The notes below the pieces were generated by a model. That model saw nothing but the letters and a program-made list of their open reading frames with translations, was not told where the DNA came from and did not search any database. A program made the position numbers and the translations under genes. A DNA stretch of 50,101 bases, from assembly GCA_036378675.1 (NCBI GenBank), contig DASUWA010000006.1, positions 1-50,101 of the forward strand. The letters run 5' to 3'. This document shows positions 1,662 through 34,086 of this stretch, in pieces. Origin of the DNA: Acidimicrobiales bacterium (lineage in GTDB: Bacteria; Actinomycetota; Acidimicrobiia; Acidimicrobiales; Palsa-688). How positions within the stretch are numbered: position 1 is the stretch's first letter; each line of letters starts with the position of its first letter.

Positions 1662-2918
1662 TTATCCCCGAAGGACGACCCGCACGACGCCCGCCATGCT
1701 GTCCGTGGGGACCGGCACCACCTCGACGTTGAGCCCGGTGTGCGGGGCGACGACCATCATCCCGTTGCCGAGGTAGATCGCCACATGATCGACGAAGGTC
1801 GGGTCGTTTGGGTCATAGGTCCAGAACAGCAGGTCCCCCGGAGCGGCGGACGAGAGCGGGATGTGCTGCCCCGTCAAGAACTGCTCGGCCGCGGTCCGCG
1901 GCATCAGCACGCCTGCCTGGCGGTACGCCCATTGCACCAACCCGGAGCAGTCGAAGGAGCCAGGGCCCGCGGCGCCCCACACATATGGCTTGCCGACCTG
2001 GGAGAGCGCTGCCGCGATCAGGGAGGCCCGCCGCACGTTGTCGAGACCGGGACCGGTGATTTGGGGGATCTCGCTGAGGCGGAGCAGCTCGACGGTCGCT
2101 CCCGGGAGGGCCTGCTGGATCTCGTTGCGCAGCGTCACCCCGTCGACCGTCGGAGCGCTGATCACCGCGCCGGTGCGGGGCGCCAGCCCGAGGGGTGACG
2201 AGTAGTTCTGGTCGACCAGGAGGTCGACGCCCGGCAGGCCGAGCGAGGCGAAGGCCCCCATCCACCCCTGTACCGAGCCGTTGGTCCCGCCCGCCGGCGT
2301 TAGTGAGTCGAGCACGCCGAGCTGCAGCTTCTGGTCGGTCGCCATGTCGTACGACGAGACCAAGGCGCCGCCGGCGAGGTACTGCCACAACCGGTCGACC
2401 ACTGCGCTGGACTGCGGGGTGAAGGTCCTGAAGGTCGACGGGTTCACCCCGAAGGTGACTGCCTTGGCGCCGGCGAGGTTGACGGTGCCGGTGTCGACGA
2501 TCGTCGCGGCCTGAACGCCCCGCAGATGATCGAGCTTGCTCTCCGCGTCCCCGCTGATCGGGCTCTGGACCAACACAACCGCGTCGGGAGTGTGAACGGC
2601 TCCGGCGCTTCCGACGGCCGGCAAGTTGCCGGCGCTGGGCACCGGCAAGGCCTGGGGCGTCGGAGTGGGGGTTTGCGGGGCGCCCGTCGTGGTGGACGGC
2701 AACGACGAGTCCGTAAAGTCGCCCGAACCCGCCACCCGCAGCCCGGACGCTGCCGACCCTCTCGCCGCCGAGGACCCCTTACCGTTCAGTAACTTGCTGG
2801 AGAAGACGAGCGGTGAAGCGTCGGTCGCCCGGCGCCCTCCCGAAACGGCGAACGCGCTGATCGTGGACACGAGCAGCAGGAAGCCGACGCAGGCGGCAAG
2901 GACCTTCGGAAGTCTCAC
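1662..2918 (-). CDS. Secreted NlpC/P60 peptidoglycan hydrolase
   Basis: A probable cell-wall endopeptidase of 418 aa. The N-terminus (residues 1-28) is a signal peptide or membrane anchor, followed by a Ser/Thr/Pro-rich linker to about residue 110. The middle third (about 110-290) is not a typical lysin domain and loosely resembles the extracellular domains of FtsX/MacB-type permeases (inference). The C-terminal 123 residues are a complete NlpC/P60 domain, with catalytic Cys ~324 in FDCSGL, His ~378 in DHVAIYLGN and a third polar residue at His ~393. Start GTG at 2918 sits behind a GGAGG sequence. The gene lies between the DNA glycosylase and the rRNA promoter, all in the same direction. Confidence 0.9.
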   Translation of the reverse strand: MRLPKVLAACVGFLLLVSTISAFAVSGGRRATDASPLVFSSKLLNGKGSSAARGSAASGLRVAGSGDFTDSSLPSTTTGAPQTPTPTPQALPVPSAGNLPAVGSAGAVHTPDAVVLVQSPISGDAESKLDHLRGVQAATIVDTGTVNLAGAKAVTFGVNPSTFRTFTPQSSAVVDRLWQYLAGGALVSSYDMATDQKLQLGVLDSLTPAGGTNGSVQGWMGAFASLGLPGVDLLVDQNYSSPLGLAPRTGAVISAPTVDGVTLRNEIQQALPGATVELLRLSEIPQITGPGLDNVRRASLIAAALSQVGKPYVWGAAGPGSFDCSGLVQWAYRQAGVLMPRTAAEQFLTGQHIPLSSAAPGDLLFWTYDPNDPTFVDHVAIYLGNGMMVVAPHTGLNVEVVPVPTDSMAGVVRVVLRG

Positions 2919-3036
2919 CCGCCTCCGATCACTCGGGCCGGGTCACTCGGGGTCGGGCCTCTGGCGGCCCTCCGGGCGATGTATCACCCTTCCCGGTTCC
3001 CCTCCGTTCACCTGAATTCCTCCTAGCGGGGACGTT

Positions 3037-24154: not shown

Positions 24155-24975
24155 CGTGACACTGACCCGCCCGGGGCCCCATCCCCGGGCTCCTCCGGAG
24201 CGCGGGGGCCCCTACCCCACGCCCGGCCGGACACTGACCCGCCCGGGGCCCCAGCCCCGGGCTCCTCCGGAGCGCGGGGGCCCCTACCCCACGCCCGGCC
24301 GTTTTCTGCCGCGAAGGCGTCCTCGGCTGCCGACCGTATGGTGCGGGCGGCCTCGATGGGGTCGGGCTGGCCGAAGATGGCGTTCCCAGCGACGAACGTG
24401 TCGGCACCGGCGGCGGCGACCAGCTTGACCGTTTCGGCGTCGATACCGCCGTCGACCTCTATAGCGAGATCGAGCCCGTCGCGCCGCGAGATCTCCGCGA
24501 CACGGGCGATCTTCGGGATGGCGACGTCCATGAAGTGCTGCCCGCCGAAACCGGGATGCACCGACATGACGAGCATGACGTCGATCCGGTCGAGCCAGGG
24601 CTCGCAGGTCTCGATCGGCGTTTCGGGGTTGACGGCGAGACCGACCTTCATGCCCAGGTCTCGCGTCTGCTCGATGAGATCGGCGGTGCCCCCTATCTCG
24701 ATGTGGACGGTGCAGCTGTCCGCGCCGGCGTCGGCGAACGGTTTCAGGTAGTCCCCCGGGTTGGTCATCATCAGATGACAATCGAGGAAGTCGTCGGTGT
24801 GGCGACGGATCGCGGATACGACCGGCGGGCCGATGGTCAGGTTGGGAACGAAATGGCCGTCCATGACATCGACGTGCAGCCAGTCGGTCTCGGCGCGAAC
24901 CCTTTCGATATCGGCGGCGAGTTCTGCGAAGTCCGCCGAAAGGATCGACGGCGCCATTCGGAGCATCTTCGTCAC
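24151..24975 (-). CDS. rpe: Ribulose-phosphate 3-epimerase with repeat-encoded tail
   Basis: Pentose phosphate pathway epimerase. 274 aa from GTG 24975, which has GGAG 9 nt upstream; ATGs at 24966 and 24957 are alternatives. TIM-barrel motifs are APSILSADF, LHVDVMDGHFVPN, VMSVHPGFGGQ and EVDGGID. Family members end near residue 225. Here ~49 further residues are two copies of a 24-residue Gly/Pro/Arg-rich unit encoded by a 72-nt hairpin repeat (24158-24301). The stop overlaps the mogA start. Confidence 0.95.
   Translation of the reverse strand: MTKMLRMAPSILSADFAELAADIERVRAETDWLHVDVMDGHFVPNLTIGPPVVSAIRRHTDDFLDCHLMMTNPGDYLKPFADAGADSCTVHIEIGGTADLIEQTRDLGMKVGLAVNPETPIETCEPWLDRIDVMLVMSVHPGFGGQHFMDVAIPKIARVAEISRRDGLDLAIEVDGGIDAETVKLVAAAGADTFVAGNAIFGQPDPIEAARTIRSAAEDAFAAENGRAWGRGPRAPEEPGAGAPGGSVSGRAWGRGPRAPEEPGDGAPGGSVSR
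24158..24301. repeat. Two tandem copies of a 72-nt hairpin-forming repeat
   Basis: Units 24158-24229 and 24230-24301 differ at one base (24182 T, 24254 G). Each holds an 11-bp hairpin with one mismatch and a 3-nt loop (24183-24207 and 24255-24279) plus two GGGGCCCC palindromes. A third, diverged copy lies at 40674-40745. The period of 24 codons keeps rpe in frame. It resembles a REP-like element that has entered a coding sequence. Confidence 0.85.
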
Positions 24976-27676: not shown

Positions 27677-28276
27677 ATGTCCCCCGACCACTACTTCACC
27701 AAGGATCCGAACGCTCCATCGAGGCGGGCGGAGGTCCTGTTGAAACTGCCCGACCTCGAAGCCTCGCTCGTGGTGGACAGGGGCGTGTTCTCCGCCGGCG
27801 GGGTCGACCCGGGGACCATGGAGCTTCTTCGCGCGGTTCCGGTACCGCCGGAAACTGGGAACCTGCTCGACCTCGGGTGCGGGTACGGTCCGATCGCATG
27901 CGCTCTCGCCCATCGTTCCCCGGACGCGACCGTGTGGGCGGTCGACGTGAACGAGCGCGCGCTCGCGCTGGCCGCCGAGAACGCTTCACGACTCGGCCTG
28001 GCTGGGGTCAAGCCGGTGACGCCCGACCATGTTCCGGACGGGTTGGTGTTCGATGGGATCTGGTCGAACCCTCCGATACGCATCGGCAAGGCGGCGCTCC
28101 ATGATCTGCTCTCCGCATGGTTGGCCCGCCTCACCCCAACAGGGTCCGCTTGGCTGGTCGTCCACCGCCACCTCGGCGGAGATTCCCTCGCCGCGTGGCT
28201 CGCCTCCAGCGAATACACCGTGGAGCGGATCGCGTCGAAGAAGGGCTACCGGATCCTGAGGGCGTCGCGACCGTGA
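27677..28276 (+). CDS. RsmC-like class I SAM methyltransferase
   Basis: 199 aa. The fold matches the C-terminal half of RsmC (16S rRNA m2G1207): LLDLGCGYGPIACALA (SAM motif I, ~62-77), AVDVNERALALA, and motif IV SNPPIRIGK (~135-143) with NPP. Small single-domain versions are common in actinobacteria. The exact target base is not certain. Its TGA overlaps the first of three micro-ORFs (28273-28318) that lead into the next methyltransferase gene. Confidence 0.85.
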   Translation: MSPDHYFTKDPNAPSRRAEVLLKLPDLEASLVVDRGVFSAGGVDPGTMELLRAVPVPPETGNLLDLGCGYGPIACALAHRSPDATVWAVDVNERALALAAENASRLGLAGVKPVTPDHVPDGLVFDGIWSNPPIRIGKAALHDLLSAWLARLTPTGSAWLVVHRHLGGDSLAAWLASSEYTVERIASKKGYRILRASRP

Positions 28277-28327
28277 AGCAACCCAAATGAGACACCCCCA
28301 ATGAAACAACCCAAATGAAACAACTCG
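28272..28327 (+). repeat. Four 14-nt start-codon repeats making a micro-ORF relay
   Basis: Starts lie at 28273 (GTG), 28287, 28301 and 28315 (ATG), exactly 14 nt apart. The first three open 5-codon ORFs, MKQPK, MRHPQ and MKQPK, each ending in a TGA that overlaps the next start as ATGA. The first GTG overlaps the stop of the upstream methyltransferase as GTGA. The fourth start is the trmH-like gene, which begins MKQLG. No Shine-Dalgarno is seen before 28315. The repeat itself is plain in the sequence; its translation is inference. Confidence 0.7.
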
Positions 28328-28836
28328 GCCCCACGGACCTGAAAAGGCTCCACCGGGAATGGAACCGGCGAACCGCTGGGCGCGTGGCGCTCCTGCTCGA
28401 GAGCATCCAGTCTCCGTACAACGTCGGTTCGATCGTGCGCACCGCGGCCGCGTACCGGGTCGAGCAGATCTACCTCGCCGGCAACACGGTGAGCCCGGCT
28501 GGCGCGAAGTCCGGGAAAGTGTCCATGGGCACCGAGCGTTACCTGTCGTGGAGCAACTTCGAACGCGGACCCGAGGCGGCAGATGCTGCCCGCGAGGACG
28601 GCTACGCAGTCGTAGGACTCGAGCTCGCCGACGCAGCCGTGCCGATGCACCAGCTCCGGGCGGGTCCGGACGTCTGCCTTGCAATCGGCAACGAGGACCA
28701 CGGATTGTCGCCGGCCACCCTCGCGGCATGCGACGCGGTGACGTTCCTCCCGCTCCTCGGTCGGGTGGGATCGCTCAACGTCGCGACGGCCGCCGCGATC
28801 GCGCTTTACGAACTGCGCAGGCAGGAGTGGACCTAG
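28315..28836 (+). CDS. TrmH/SpoU-family RNA 2'-O-methyltransferase (short type)
   Basis: 173 aa, knot domain only, with a short N-terminal helix. Motifs: SPYNVGSIVRTAAAY (motif 1, ~33-47), LAIGNEDHGLSP (motif 2) and GSLNVATAAAIALYE (motif 3, SAM knot). Closest in form to tRNA Gm18 TrmH, but the target is not proven. Translation must start at the end of a four-fold 14-nt repeat. Its stop lies only 3 nt from the convergent priA stop, with no terminator between them. Confidence 0.9.
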   Translation: MKQLGPTDLKRLHREWNRRTAGRVALLLESIQSPYNVGSIVRTAAAYRVEQIYLAGNTVSPAGAKSGKVSMGTERYLSWSNFERGPEAADAAREDGYAVVGLELADAAVPMHQLRAGPDVCLAIGNEDHGLSPATLAACDAVTFLPLLGRVGSLNVATAAAIALYELRRQEWT

Positions 28837-28839
28837 CTT

Positions 28840-30615
28840 CTACAAACGCGCCGGATCGACCGCGATACGCAGGCGGCCGGCTGGCCGCGGCACCGCCGCC
28901 AACGCGTCGGCAAGGGTCTCGTAATCCGAAGCCTTGACGATCCACTCGCCGTCACGAGGCCCCAACACCTCCACGAGCAGGCCCGCCAGCTGGGTGACAT
29001 AAACCTCGGCGGCTTCGCCGGACACGACCGCCACTGCAGCGAACGGCGGAAAACGCAACGCCTCCCTCACACCGATCTCGGCCTCCACAAGCAGCCCGGG
29101 ATCGGCAACGAGCGCCGAGCGCACCACCGGGTGCTCGGGAACCCTCGTCTGAACGATGACCCGCCCGGACCTTCCACCGACGAGCCGCGACGCAGTTGCC
29201 AGGAGAGCCAGCGCCTCGCTGCCGGCCCTCACCCGAGGCGCGAGCAGCTCCTGGTCCAAATCGACGAACGCCACCGCCCCGAAACCGTCCGCCGGCGACA
29301 GCCGGCGGAGCAGCGCCTCCGTCCCAACCAGCACTTCGTCTCCGGGTAACCGGTCAGTCGCGGCGGTCACCTCGCCGACTGACCGTCCGGCGAGGACCTC
29401 CAGCTCCTCGCGGGCGCGCGTCACCCCGATTCTCAGCCGGCGCAGCACGGTCGAGCCGCAAGACGCGCACACCACCGGTCTCGACAAACCGCATTGGGGG
29501 CACTCCAGCTGCCCACCCGGTGCCTGCAGCAACGAGGCCCCGCACCGCTCGCACCGGGCAAGCTCGCCGCACGATTCGCAAGCGAGCAGCCGGGCCCGAC
29601 CGGTGCGGTTCAGCACGCACGCCGCCTTCGTCGTTGATCTCACCAACTCAACGAGCCGTTCCGACCACAGGCCCGACCTTGGGTCCTCCTTCCTCCGGTC
29701 GACGACCTCGAGCGCCGCCCACCCCTGCCGCTCCGCAGCCCGGTCGGGAAGGCGAACCTCTCCAAGGGCAACCAGTTCCGGGGTGGGGCAGGCTGTCAGC
29801 ACCACCAAGCCCGCGCCGGCCCGTTTCGCCCTTTCGGCGAGCACTTGCACCGCGTGCCAAGTGGGGACCTGCTCCTGGCCCAGCGCCTCGTCGTGCCCGT
29901 CGATGACGACAGCGGCGGCGAGGCCGGGGCAGGGCCCCCACGCGGCGGACCGGGTGCCGATGACCACGCCTGCGCCGGCGCGTGCCTGCGCCCACTGGTC
30001 CGGCAGGAGCGCCACACTCGCCCCGGCGCGGCGCAATCGCGCGGACAGTACCTGCGCCCGGGACGCGGACGGGACCACCACCAGCGTCGGACCAACCTGG
30101 GAAACGGCCGCAACCACGACGGTCGGATCGGCCGCCGGCGGGAATCGGACGACGACCGCCCTCCCTGCCGGAAGCGCTTCGACCGCGGGGGCGGTCCAGC
30201 CCGAGGCGGGCGGGGCGGCTCGCTGCAATCGGGGCGGCGGAAGTTCAGGCACCGCGTGCTCGGGAGACGCCGTTCCGAGGAATGCTCCCCTGCGGCTGGC
30301 CCAGCGCCACGCTGCCCACTCGGCGAGGTCGACCACCTCGGGTTCGGGTCCCCAGCCCCGGAGCTTGGCCAGCGCGCGGAGCTCCAGTCCGGCCGGAGGG
30401 TCTTCGCCAAGCCCGGTGATCCAACCGCCGACCCGCCTTCCGTGAAGGTCGACCCTGACCTCGGCGCCGACCGCCGCGGCGCCCAGCATCTCGTCGGGCA
30501 CCAGGTAGTCGAACTCTTTGTCGATGCCCGCAACCCCCGGCAGGACCCGGGCGACCGTCGCCCCGGCCGCAGGGAGGGAGGCCGGCAACGAGCGCCGGCG
30601 CCCCCGTTTTTTCAT
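28840..30615 (-). CDS. priA: PriA-like replication restart protein, ATPase motifs lost
   Basis: 591 aa. The N-terminal 3'-DNA-binding domain (about 20-105) is recognisable (FDYLVP, GRRVGGWI). The helicase core lacks a Walker A: the expected position reads VVVRFPPAADPT. The DEEH box is replaced by IDGHDEALGQ. Eight Cys of the Zn domain survive (CESCG, CERCG, CPQCG, CASCG; about 345-385). Actinobacterial PriA proteins are known to lack detectable helicase motifs, so this is a lineage trait. ATG 30615 is joined to metK by a micro-ORF. Confidence 0.92.
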   Translation of the reverse strand: MKKRGRRRSLPASLPAAGATVARVLPGVAGIDKEFDYLVPDEMLGAAAVGAEVRVDLHGRRVGGWITGLGEDPPAGLELRALAKLRGWGPEPEVVDLAEWAAWRWASRRGAFLGTASPEHAVPELPPPRLQRAAPPASGWTAPAVEALPAGRAVVVRFPPAADPTVVVAAVSQVGPTLVVVPSASRAQVLSARLRRAGASVALLPDQWAQARAGAGVVIGTRSAAWGPCPGLAAAVVIDGHDEALGQEQVPTWHAVQVLAERAKRAGAGLVVLTACPTPELVALGEVRLPDRAAERQGWAALEVVDRRKEDPRSGLWSERLVELVRSTTKAACVLNRTGRARLLACESCGELARCERCGASLLQAPGGQLECPQCGLSRPVVCASCGSTVLRRLRIGVTRAREELEVLAGRSVGEVTAATDRLPGDEVLVGTEALLRRLSPADGFGAVAFVDLDQELLAPRVRAGSEALALLATASRLVGGRSGRVIVQTRVPEHPVVRSALVADPGLLVEAEIGVREALRFPPFAAVAVVSGEAAEVYVTQLAGLLVEVLGPRDGEWIVKASDYETLADALAAVPRPAGRLRIAVDPARL

Positions 30616-30626
30616 CCGAGAATCAA
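30612..30626 (-). other. Micro-ORF bridging metK and priA
   Basis: TTG ATT CTC GGA TGA fills the 7-nt gap exactly. Its TTG overlaps the metK stop as TTGA and its stop overlaps the priA start as ATGA. No separate Shine-Dalgarno is visible for priA. Confidence 0.3.
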
Positions 30627-31816
30627 ACGCCGAGCGCCGACTTGAACTCCTCGAGCCGGCTGAGCTGCTCCCAGCTGAAGTCCTTCTCGTTGCGGCCGAA
30701 ATGTCCGTAGGCGGCGGTCTTGCGGTAGATCGGCCGGCGCAGCTCGAGGTCCCGGATAATCGCAGCAGGACGCAGGTCGAACACCTTGTTCACCGCCTCG
30801 CTGATCTTCGCCGGGTCGACCTGCTCGGTGCCGAACGTCTCCACGAGCAGCGACACCGGGCGGGCGACGCCGATCGCGTATGCGACCTGGATCTCGCAAC
30901 GTTCCGCTGCTCCGGCACCGACCACGTGCTTCGCCAGCCAACGGGCCGCGTACGCCGCGGACCGGTCGACCTTCGAGGGGTCCTTCCCGGAAAAAGCACC
31001 GCCGCCGTGGCGCGCAGCCCCTCCGTAGGTGTCCACGATTATCTTGCGACCGGTCAAGCCGGCGTCGGCGTGCGGGCCGCCCAACTCGAACTTCCCGGTG
31101 GGGTTGGCGAGGATCTTGTAGCCGTCGTCAGCGAACTGCGGCGGCACGAGGGGCGCTATCACGTGGTCGCGCAGGTCCGGGAGCAGGAGTGTCTCCAGGT
31201 CGATGTTCGGGTTGTGCTGCGTCGAGATGAGAACGGTCTTCAACCGGACCGGCCGTCCGTCCTCGTACTCGAAGGTGACCTGGGTCTTGCCGTCCGGACG
31301 GAGGTAAGGAAGCACCCCGGCCTTGCGCACCTGGGCGAGACGCTGCGCGAGCCGGTGAGCGAGCCAGATCGGCGTCGGCATGAGGTCGTCGGTTTCGTTG
31401 CACGCGTAGCCGAACATCATGCCCTGGTCGCCGGCGCCTTGCGCGTTGAGGATGTCCTCGCCGCTCGTCCCGGCTCGAACCTCGAGAGCGGTGTCGACGC
31501 CCTGCGCGATGTCGGGTGACTGGGAACCGATCGAGACGGTGACGCCGCACGTCCGGCCGTCGAAGCCCATCTCGGAGCTGGTGTACCCGATGTCCGTGAC
31601 GACTTCGCGCACCAACGTCGGGATCTCGACATATGCGGTCGTCGTGATCTCGCCGGCCACAACCACCAGCCCGGTGGTGAGCAGGGTCTCGCATGCGACC
31701 CTGGATTGCGGGTCCTCAGCAAGGAGGGCGTCCAGGACGGAGTCCGAAATCTGGTCGGCCATCTTGTCGGGGTGGCCCTCCGTGACCGACTCGGAGGTGA
31801 AGGTCCAGCGCCTCAT
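30623..31816 (-). CDS. metK: S-adenosylmethionine synthase
   Basis: Makes SAM from methionine and ATP. 397 aa, normal length. Key segments: [18 protein letters not shown] (~8-25), [12 protein letters not shown] (~126-137) and [19 protein letters not shown] (~268-286). ATG 31816 overlaps the coaBC stop as ATGA. SAM made here serves the several methyltransferases in the window. No SAM riboswitch is seen, as the gene is inside an operon. Confidence 0.98.
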
Positions 31817-33486: not shown

Positions 33487-34044
33487 TCAGCCGGGGTCTG
33501 AGTACCCGGCGAGTATACCAGCGACCTCGTTGGCGGCCCTTTCGACGTCGTCGTTTACGACCACGTGGTCGGCGATGCGCTCCCCTATCTCGAGCTCTTT
33601 CGCGCCGACTGCGAGGCGGCGGGAGACCATCTCGTCGTCGTCACCCCGGTGGCGCAACCGTTTCTCCTGATCCTCGGTCGACGGAGCAACGATGAAGATC
33701 AGCACCGCTTCGGGATACCGGCGCTTAACCTGCTGCGCCCCGTCGAGCTCGATCTCCAGGAGAACGTCCGGGCCGCCGGGCTCGACGGCCGTCGGGTCAA
33801 TGAGAGGCGTCCCGTAGAGCGCCTGCGTTCCGGCGAACTCCGTCCACTCGAGGAATCCGTCCTCCCGGATCCGATTCTCGAAGGTGGGACGGTCCACGAA
33901 GACGTAGGCGTCCTCGGGCTCGGTCGGTCGTCTCGGGCGGGTCGTCCAGGATCGTGACAGCCAGAGGTCGGGCCGAAGCTCGAGGAGGCGCGTCACGACG
34001 GTTCCCTTTCCGACCCCGCCGGGGCCGGACACTATAAAAATCAC
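33487..34044 (-). CDS. gmk: Guanylate kinase
   Basis: GMP to GDP. 185 aa, P-loop GPGGVGKGT (~7-15), the SRSWTTRPRRP GMP-binding loop and ELDGAQQVKRRYPEA. GTG 34044 gives MIFIVSGPGG, a family-like start. It is the last of four start-like codons spaced exactly 14 nt apart (34086, 34072, 34058, 34044). The preceding three open 5-codon ORFs that end in 4-nt overlaps with the next. There is no clear Shine-Dalgarno directly before the GTG. Confidence 0.96.
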   Translation of the reverse strand: MIFIVSGPGGVGKGTVVTRLLELRPDLWLSRSWTTRPRRPTEPEDAYVFVDRPTFENRIREDGFLEWTEFAGTQALYGTPLIDPTAVEPGGPDVLLEIELDGAQQVKRRYPEAVLIFIVAPSTEDQEKRLRHRGDDDEMVSRRLAVGAKELEIGERIADHVVVNDDVERAANEVAGILAGYSDPG

Positions 34045-34086
34045 TTTGGAAAGATCATTCGGGGAAGATCATCGGGAGACGATCAC
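34041..34086 (-). repeat. 14-nt start-codon repeats making a micro-ORF relay into gmk
   Basis: Three 18-nt ORFs: GTG ATC GTC TCC CGA TGA (34069-34086), ATG ATC TTC CCC GAA TGA (34055-34072) and ATG ATC TTT CCA AAG TGA (34041-34058). Each stop overlaps the next start by 4 nt; the last leads to gmk GTG 34044. Encoded peptides MIVSR, MIFPE and MIFPK resemble the gmk start MIFIV, so the start region has been duplicated. The same 14-nt design occurs before the trmH-like gene at 28315. Confidence 0.65.

Follow-up and report, generated by a model that had tools for sequence, protein, structure and literature searches.

The stretch of DNA analyzed here, hereafter the window, is 50,101 nt of contig DASUWA010000006.1 in assembly GCA_036378675.1 (Acidimicrobiales bacterium, Palsa-688). 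On its plus strand lie two neighboring genes, one for a 199-aa methyltransferase (small-domain, Pfam MTS; 27677–28276, with the stop TGA at 28274–28276) and one for a TrmH-like SpoU-family methylase (28315–28836), the nearest named matches of which carry the labels Acidimicrobiaceae or Actinomycetota. Between them is a 14-nt tandem array, extending from 28273 to 28328 on the same strand, which includes three diverged copies and the first 14 nt of TrmH. TRF reports a tandem repeat at 28274–28324, with a period of 14 and 3.6 copies.

The layout of the array is as follows. Read from the sequence, start codons are found at a spacing of 14 nt, as GTG 28273, ATG 28287, ATG 28301, and ATG 28315. The first three open 18-nt micro-ORFs on the plus strand, GTGAAGCAACCCAAATGA (MKQPK*, 28273–28290), ATGAGACACCCCCAATGA (MRHPQ*, 28287–28304), and ATGAAACAACCCAAATGA (MKQPK*, 28301–28318), which are linked via 4-nt overlaps. 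The first GTGA of the array overlaps the methyltransferase TGA, and an ATGA overlap joins micro-ORF 3 to the TrmH start. That is, the methyltransferase stop is joined to the conserved TrmH/SpoU start by three micro-ORFs, all via NTGA overlaps; both the relay and its linking of the two genes, as drawn in the original prediction, are confirmed in the sequence. The methyltransferase and TrmH genes themselves are 38 nt apart (+38 nt from the stop to ATG 28315), and along the chain a stop/start overlap on one strand is present at all four handovers, each at −4 nt.

The units of the array have diverged from one another; of their 14 positions, 9, 9, and 11 agree with the final (TrmH) unit. Their peptides, MKQPK, MRHPQ, and MKQPK, resemble TrmH's own start, MKQLG. 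The TrmH start had been placed at the end of the repeat, not downstream of it, and this placement stands: residues M1, Q3, and L4 (the M-x-Q-L beginning, here MKQL) are invariant across 10 aligned orthologues, which makes ATG 28315 very probably the true initiation codon. To our knowledge, ORFs of this length are below what gene callers report, and for this reason such relays go unseen in annotation.

Further chains in the window and the geometry of the period

A second chain is found on the minus strand, upstream of the guanylate kinase gene (gmk, 33487–34044), with starts at GTG 34086, ATG 34072, ATG 34058, and GTG 34044. Its micro-ORFs, MIVSR* (34069–34086), MIFPE* (34055–34072), and MIFPK* (34041–34058), resemble gmk's own start, MIFIV. 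These units are also diverged, sharing 6, 7, and 8 of 14 positions with the final unit. The claim of an equal chain ahead of an unrelated gene on the other strand is thereby borne out. Runs of at least three equal linked steps occur twice in the 50 kb, against a null mean of 0.01 from 300 first-order Markov-shuffled windows, of which none (0/300) has two such runs. Runs of at least two equal steps, six in number versus a null mean of 2.8, are only mildly above the null.

The gmk chain does not begin at an upstream gene's stop and does not link two genes. The ORF scan has no ORF whose stop overlaps GTG 34086, and a mihF-like ORF (named by eye) ends 85 nt ahead of gmk. The gmk loci examined in the family have no comparable chain; five of those with an NTGA start, the present one included, carry an upstream start in the TGA frame.

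Two further candidates are present on the minus strand. The one ahead of an NlpC/P60 gene (1662–2918) extends over 2915–3011 and consists of an AGGAGG (3024–3019), a 22-codon ORF from GTG 3011, and then MTRPE* and MIGGG* at 14-nt steps. This chain may be due to chance, since its units are mutually unlike and the gene start has a GGAGG. The other is an 11-nt single relay, TTGATTCTCGGATGA (30612–30626), between the ORFs at 30623–31816 and 28840–30615. A 72-nt GC-rich repeat in two nearly perfect copies is found elsewhere in the window, at 24158–24301.

Neither TrmH nor gmk has a GGAG, GAGG, or AGGA 4-mer within −20 to −4 of its start, and the SD expected before the final start in an SD-led bicistronic leader was not found for either gene. 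The first GTG of the TrmH array (28273) has one GAGG upstream. The leader RNA fold is not unusual (z +1.06). An Rfam scan of the window at the gathering threshold matched only 16S rRNA, and a riboswitch, attenuator, or thermometer leader is not supported. The rRNA match (RF00177) is a 16S gene on the minus strand at 1–1172, truncated by the contig end.

The two chains have in common a period, an ORF length, and a junction type, which the original prediction counted as separate agreements. They amount to a single fact: whenever a tandem repeat includes NTGA and its period is 3n+2, such a chain follows by itself, because the next TGA sits one base past the next NTG and is hence in frame.

A special role for the 14-nt period is likewise not seen in the genome at large, where an excess of 14-nt NTGA triples had been expected. 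The 4.14 Mb of the genome (75 contigs) were scanned for RTGA triples, with periods of 13 and 16 nt as controls that sample the same codon phases as 14 and 17; reversed-pattern counts were not taken as the principal control, since the two patterns, AGTR and RTGA, may differ in frequency. There is no raw excess: 7 hits at 5 sites for 14 nt compare with 11 hits at 5 sites for 13 nt, and 17 nt gives 0 hits compared with two for 16 nt. Three of the five 14-nt sites are within the window, and the other two are also at gene junctions.

At the first of these two junctions, between a ruvA-like and a ruvB-like gene (names by eye; L007 1501–1532, minus strand), there are two 14-nt micro-ORFs, MRQAQ and MREAP, which resemble the start of the ruvB-like gene (MREAP versus MREEG). 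At the second, two PEP-synthase-like neighbors, named by eye from their resemblance to parts of the enzyme, are joined through one micro-ORF, MKGLE; here the first GTG serves as one of the upstream gene's codons. Arrays of 13 nt stand at gene starts at 2 of their 5 sites. L370 has six 13-nt units ahead of a 313-aa ORF; a double unit of 26 nt is 2 mod 3, and the chain, read by eye, may run in double 26-nt steps. The 14-nt period is thus not special to this genome; it is the frame rule that recurs. Of the recurrent mechanism originally proposed, the recurrence of relays beyond controls stands, in this genome and in the order, and the tie to a single 14-nt period does not.

The reading frame at gene junctions

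The frame rule was examined in 60 stretches plus the window, 1.106 Mb in all (27% of the genome), with 773 genes called; gene starts came from a simple codon-usage finder. The pairs were same-strand neighbors, from a 30-nt overlap to 60 nt apart. A relay-frame hit was scored when the frame opened by the NTG closed at a TGA that overlaps a candidate start of the downstream gene. For upstream genes that end in NTGA and lack direct coupling, the relay frame scored 16/37, versus 3/37 and 3/37 for the other two frames (Fisher p 2.8e-5 and 3.5e-5). With the window left out, the counts are 15/34 versus 2/34 and 3/34 (p 2.6e-5). When the upstream stop is not NTGA, the three frames score 14, 13, and 13 of 128 pairs. 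The 16 relays have steps of 14 nt (five cases), 17, 20, and 32 nt (two each), and 11, 26, 38, 41, and 56 nt (one each); with multi-link chains also counted, relays make up 19/255 pairs.

An earlier test in the same genome, which scored upstream NTGAs by distance mod 3 (34 versus 10 and 7 at 5–22 nt), was set aside as confounded, because an upstream gene that overlaps directly contributes its own in-frame GTG codons to the 2 mod 3 class. Apparently recent duplications at NTGA junctions of this genome were noted at L298 4540 and L303 9968 (14 nt, exact, and about 26 nt, near-exact). The same pipeline applied to 1.05 Mb of Nonomuraea gave 5/25 versus 0/25 and 3/25, a trend only (p 0.08). The record NZ_LT559118.1, 11.85 Mb in length, is a chromosome-sized Nonomuraea record filed as a plasmid.

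The methyltransferase–TrmH junction was then followed through the order. A search of 397 genomes gave a TrmH match at E 1e-35 in 158, and 126 distinct junctions were examined: 103 are direct NTGA overlaps, 10 are relays, 3 are one-base overlaps, and 10 are other. The last class comprises L165, one NTGA stop inside TrmH with no chain, six non-NTGA stops, and two unresolved cases. L165 was left out of the relays, reducing them from 11 to 10, because its micro-ORF falls within TrmH coding sequence. The two genes are therefore coupled almost universally, the stop-start overlap being conserved directly at 103/126 junctions and via a relay at a further 10/126.

Wherever the NTGA stop lies upstream of TrmH and out of frame with it, a chain leads to an in-frame TrmH start (10/10). 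By frame alone, at about 1/2 per junction, the chance of this outcome is about 0.001. A value of (1/3)^10 was rejected as too generous; about 1/2 per junction is fairer because in-frame cases are classed as direct. The ten relays come from eight genera in four families and are unlike in micro-ORF length and sequence, with steps of 14x3, 20x2, 29, 14, 119, 17, 8, 17, 14, and 38 nt, each of them 2 mod 3 because the definition of a link requires it. Two relays, L167 and L181, end slightly upstream of the aligned M1. The frame rule is thus seen both in a quarter of the genome and in the order.

RTGA triples were also counted anywhere in 298 genomes of the order, where they occur at 14 nt in 218 and at 17 nt in 230, versus 157 at 13 nt and 177 at 16 nt; the p values, 1.6e-7 (14 versus 13 nt) and 2.1e-6 (17 versus 16 nt), treat genomes as independent though they are related. 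Period 17 is as enriched as period 14 across the order. In the phylum at large, the excess at 14 nt falls short of significance (62 versus 53 of 119 genomes for 13 nt, p 0.15). When one site of each period was taken from each of 20 genomes as a matched pair, an ORF of at least 100 aa began at the last RTG in 10/20 for period 14 versus 4/20 for period 13 (p 0.048). Arrays at one gene vary in copy number from species to species: 2 to 4 units are found ahead of a MTAVL gene in five species of one genus, and 2 to 4 units ahead of a MSxP(I/V)DL gene in three species of one genus. Among 20 array sites, picked mostly for between-species likeness and so illustrating the case, not testing it, 17 open an ORF of at least 100 aa. 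A 17-nt RTGA triple with a common GTGACNAAGGCNAGCTGGTGAG was seen in five genomes (G059, G143, G263, G173, G110) from two families; it resembles the conserved end of a gene, after which come an SD and a start.

Origin of the arrays and relation to known couplings

The arrays probably arose by tandem duplication of start regions and were retained where termination-reinitiation coupling survives. The scenario for TrmH would be as follows. An overlapping stop/start junction, the NTGA plus the first nucleotides of TrmH, was duplicated in tandem, and the copies then diverged; a duplication at this point would leave both proteins intact. A length of 3n+2 would turn one handover into a chain, and other lengths would break the chain or lengthen the protein. 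A ribosome would terminate the methyltransferase at UGA, reinitiate at the overlapping GUG, read five codons, stop, reinitiate at the next AUG, and so proceed to TrmH. The stop-start spacing would then stay at −4 nt per step, the gap without the chain being +38 nt. According to the cited part of PMC10666635, of three native E. coli pairs set 38 nt apart, two lost 80–90% of their coupling and the remaining one lost all of it; other work found little spacing effect up to +25 nt, and the studies disagree on steepness (review PMC12548453, section 6).

The TrmH junctions, the frame test in the genome, the triple counts in the order, the resemblance of units to their own gene's start, the variation in copy number within a genus, and the lack of both an SD-like 4-mer and an unusual RNA fold favor this duplication-and-coupling reading, under which we infer that the micro-ORFs are translated. 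Duplication or slippage would provide the units, among which coupling, acting as a filter on reading frame, seems to choose the survivors. Several facts weigh against it. Passing through three handovers in a row would be expected to lower the yield of TrmH; no coupled gene stands upstream of the gmk chain, and the family's gmk loci examined show nothing like it; the genome's own 14-nt triples are not above the 13-nt control, with 17-nt triples absent; the phylum shows no significant 14-nt excess, and the frame test in Nonomuraea gives a trend only; and part of the literature finds little effect of spacing.

A rather unlikely alternative, though one that shares the slippage duplications, is that 3n+2 copies persist because an upstream start followed at once by a stop is nearly harmless, with ribosomes mostly starting TrmH independently and the micro-ORFs having no positive role. 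Copy number does vary between species, TrmH relays differ or are missing between species within genera g4, g9, and g13, and gmk and several arrays in other genomes lack a long ORF whose end falls at the first unit, all of which fits mere tolerance. The 103 direct and 10 chained junctions among 126 point the other way, since with such numbers the coupling itself looks selected, and the TrmH and gmk starts have no SD-like 4-mer. It seems improbable that the array is a regulatory element, an attenuator or rheostat in which unit number or the micro-peptides set the protein ratio. The copy-number differences between species would suit this role, as would the proline next to last in MKQPK, MRHPQ, MKQPK, MIFPE, MIFPK, and the MTHGVPR of G016; however, the position of the proline was noticed post hoc, with no null comparison, and the ruvB-like (MRQAQ, MREAP) and MTAVL relays have no proline there. 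Chance or an assembly artefact is very improbable, despite the own-genome 14-nt counts that do not exceed the 13-nt control, given the Markov null, the frame test, the like arrays in other genomes, and an array length of only 56 nt, less than that of usual sequencing reads.

On the duplicated-junction reading, the arrays vary a known theme, gene coupling, and do not constitute new machinery. Very short upstream ORFs also affect a downstream gene in cis in synthetic bicistronic designs. Mycobacterial interspersed repetitive units (MIRUs), reportedly described by Supply et al. in 1997, offer a further parallel. As reviewed in PMC12548453 (section 11), a MIRU is a start-codon repeat whose ORF is coupled at −4 nt, and because of this coupling its insertion spares expression, the same survival logic as for the present arrays. 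By geometry alone, the arrays share the start-codon repeat with −4 nt coupling. MIRUs differ in being, in that account, a dispersed and apparently mobile sequence family, whereas the arrays here each resemble their own gene's start; by inspection of these arrays, the TrmH, gmk, and ruvB-like units are unlike and form no common dispersed family.

The same 4-nt stop/start overlap, with a presumed ribosome handover, is found in NTGA termination-reinitiation coupling; the cases described in the cited parts of that literature involve a gene pair or a single uORF with its gene, in contrast to the several five-codon ORFs in series here (PMC6728339, PMC10666635, PMC12548453). Mycobacteria have RTGA-coupled small ORFs (PMC4633059), and for uPPE2 of the M. 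tuberculosis uPPE2-ppe2 pair coupling was demonstrated by reporter (PMC11260477). In both, the stop of a short ORF overlaps the next start, as here, but the ORFs are single, and the cited parts describe no tandem arrays (PMC4633059, PMC11260477). The axe-txe minigene is likewise a very short upstream ORF acting in cis on a downstream gene; as presented there, it has two codons and ends 15 nt ahead of the gene, with no overlap chain (PMC8708949). Judged by titles and opening abstracts, no description of serial micro-ORF relays in bacteria was found in topic and MIRU searches of the open-licence literature.

A broader proposal, which we advance tentatively and think unlikely as it stands, is that the order has, throughout the lineage, a class of translation-initiation region made of tandem start-codon arrays, evolvable ribosome relays in which units of 14 or 17 nt are gained or lost and the relative output of neighboring genes is thereby tuned, with the proteins untouched. 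If the duplication-and-coupling reading is true, coupling would be strong enough to filter which junction duplications survive, and there would be natural series of 1 to 4 consecutive handovers in which reinitiation could be measured per step.
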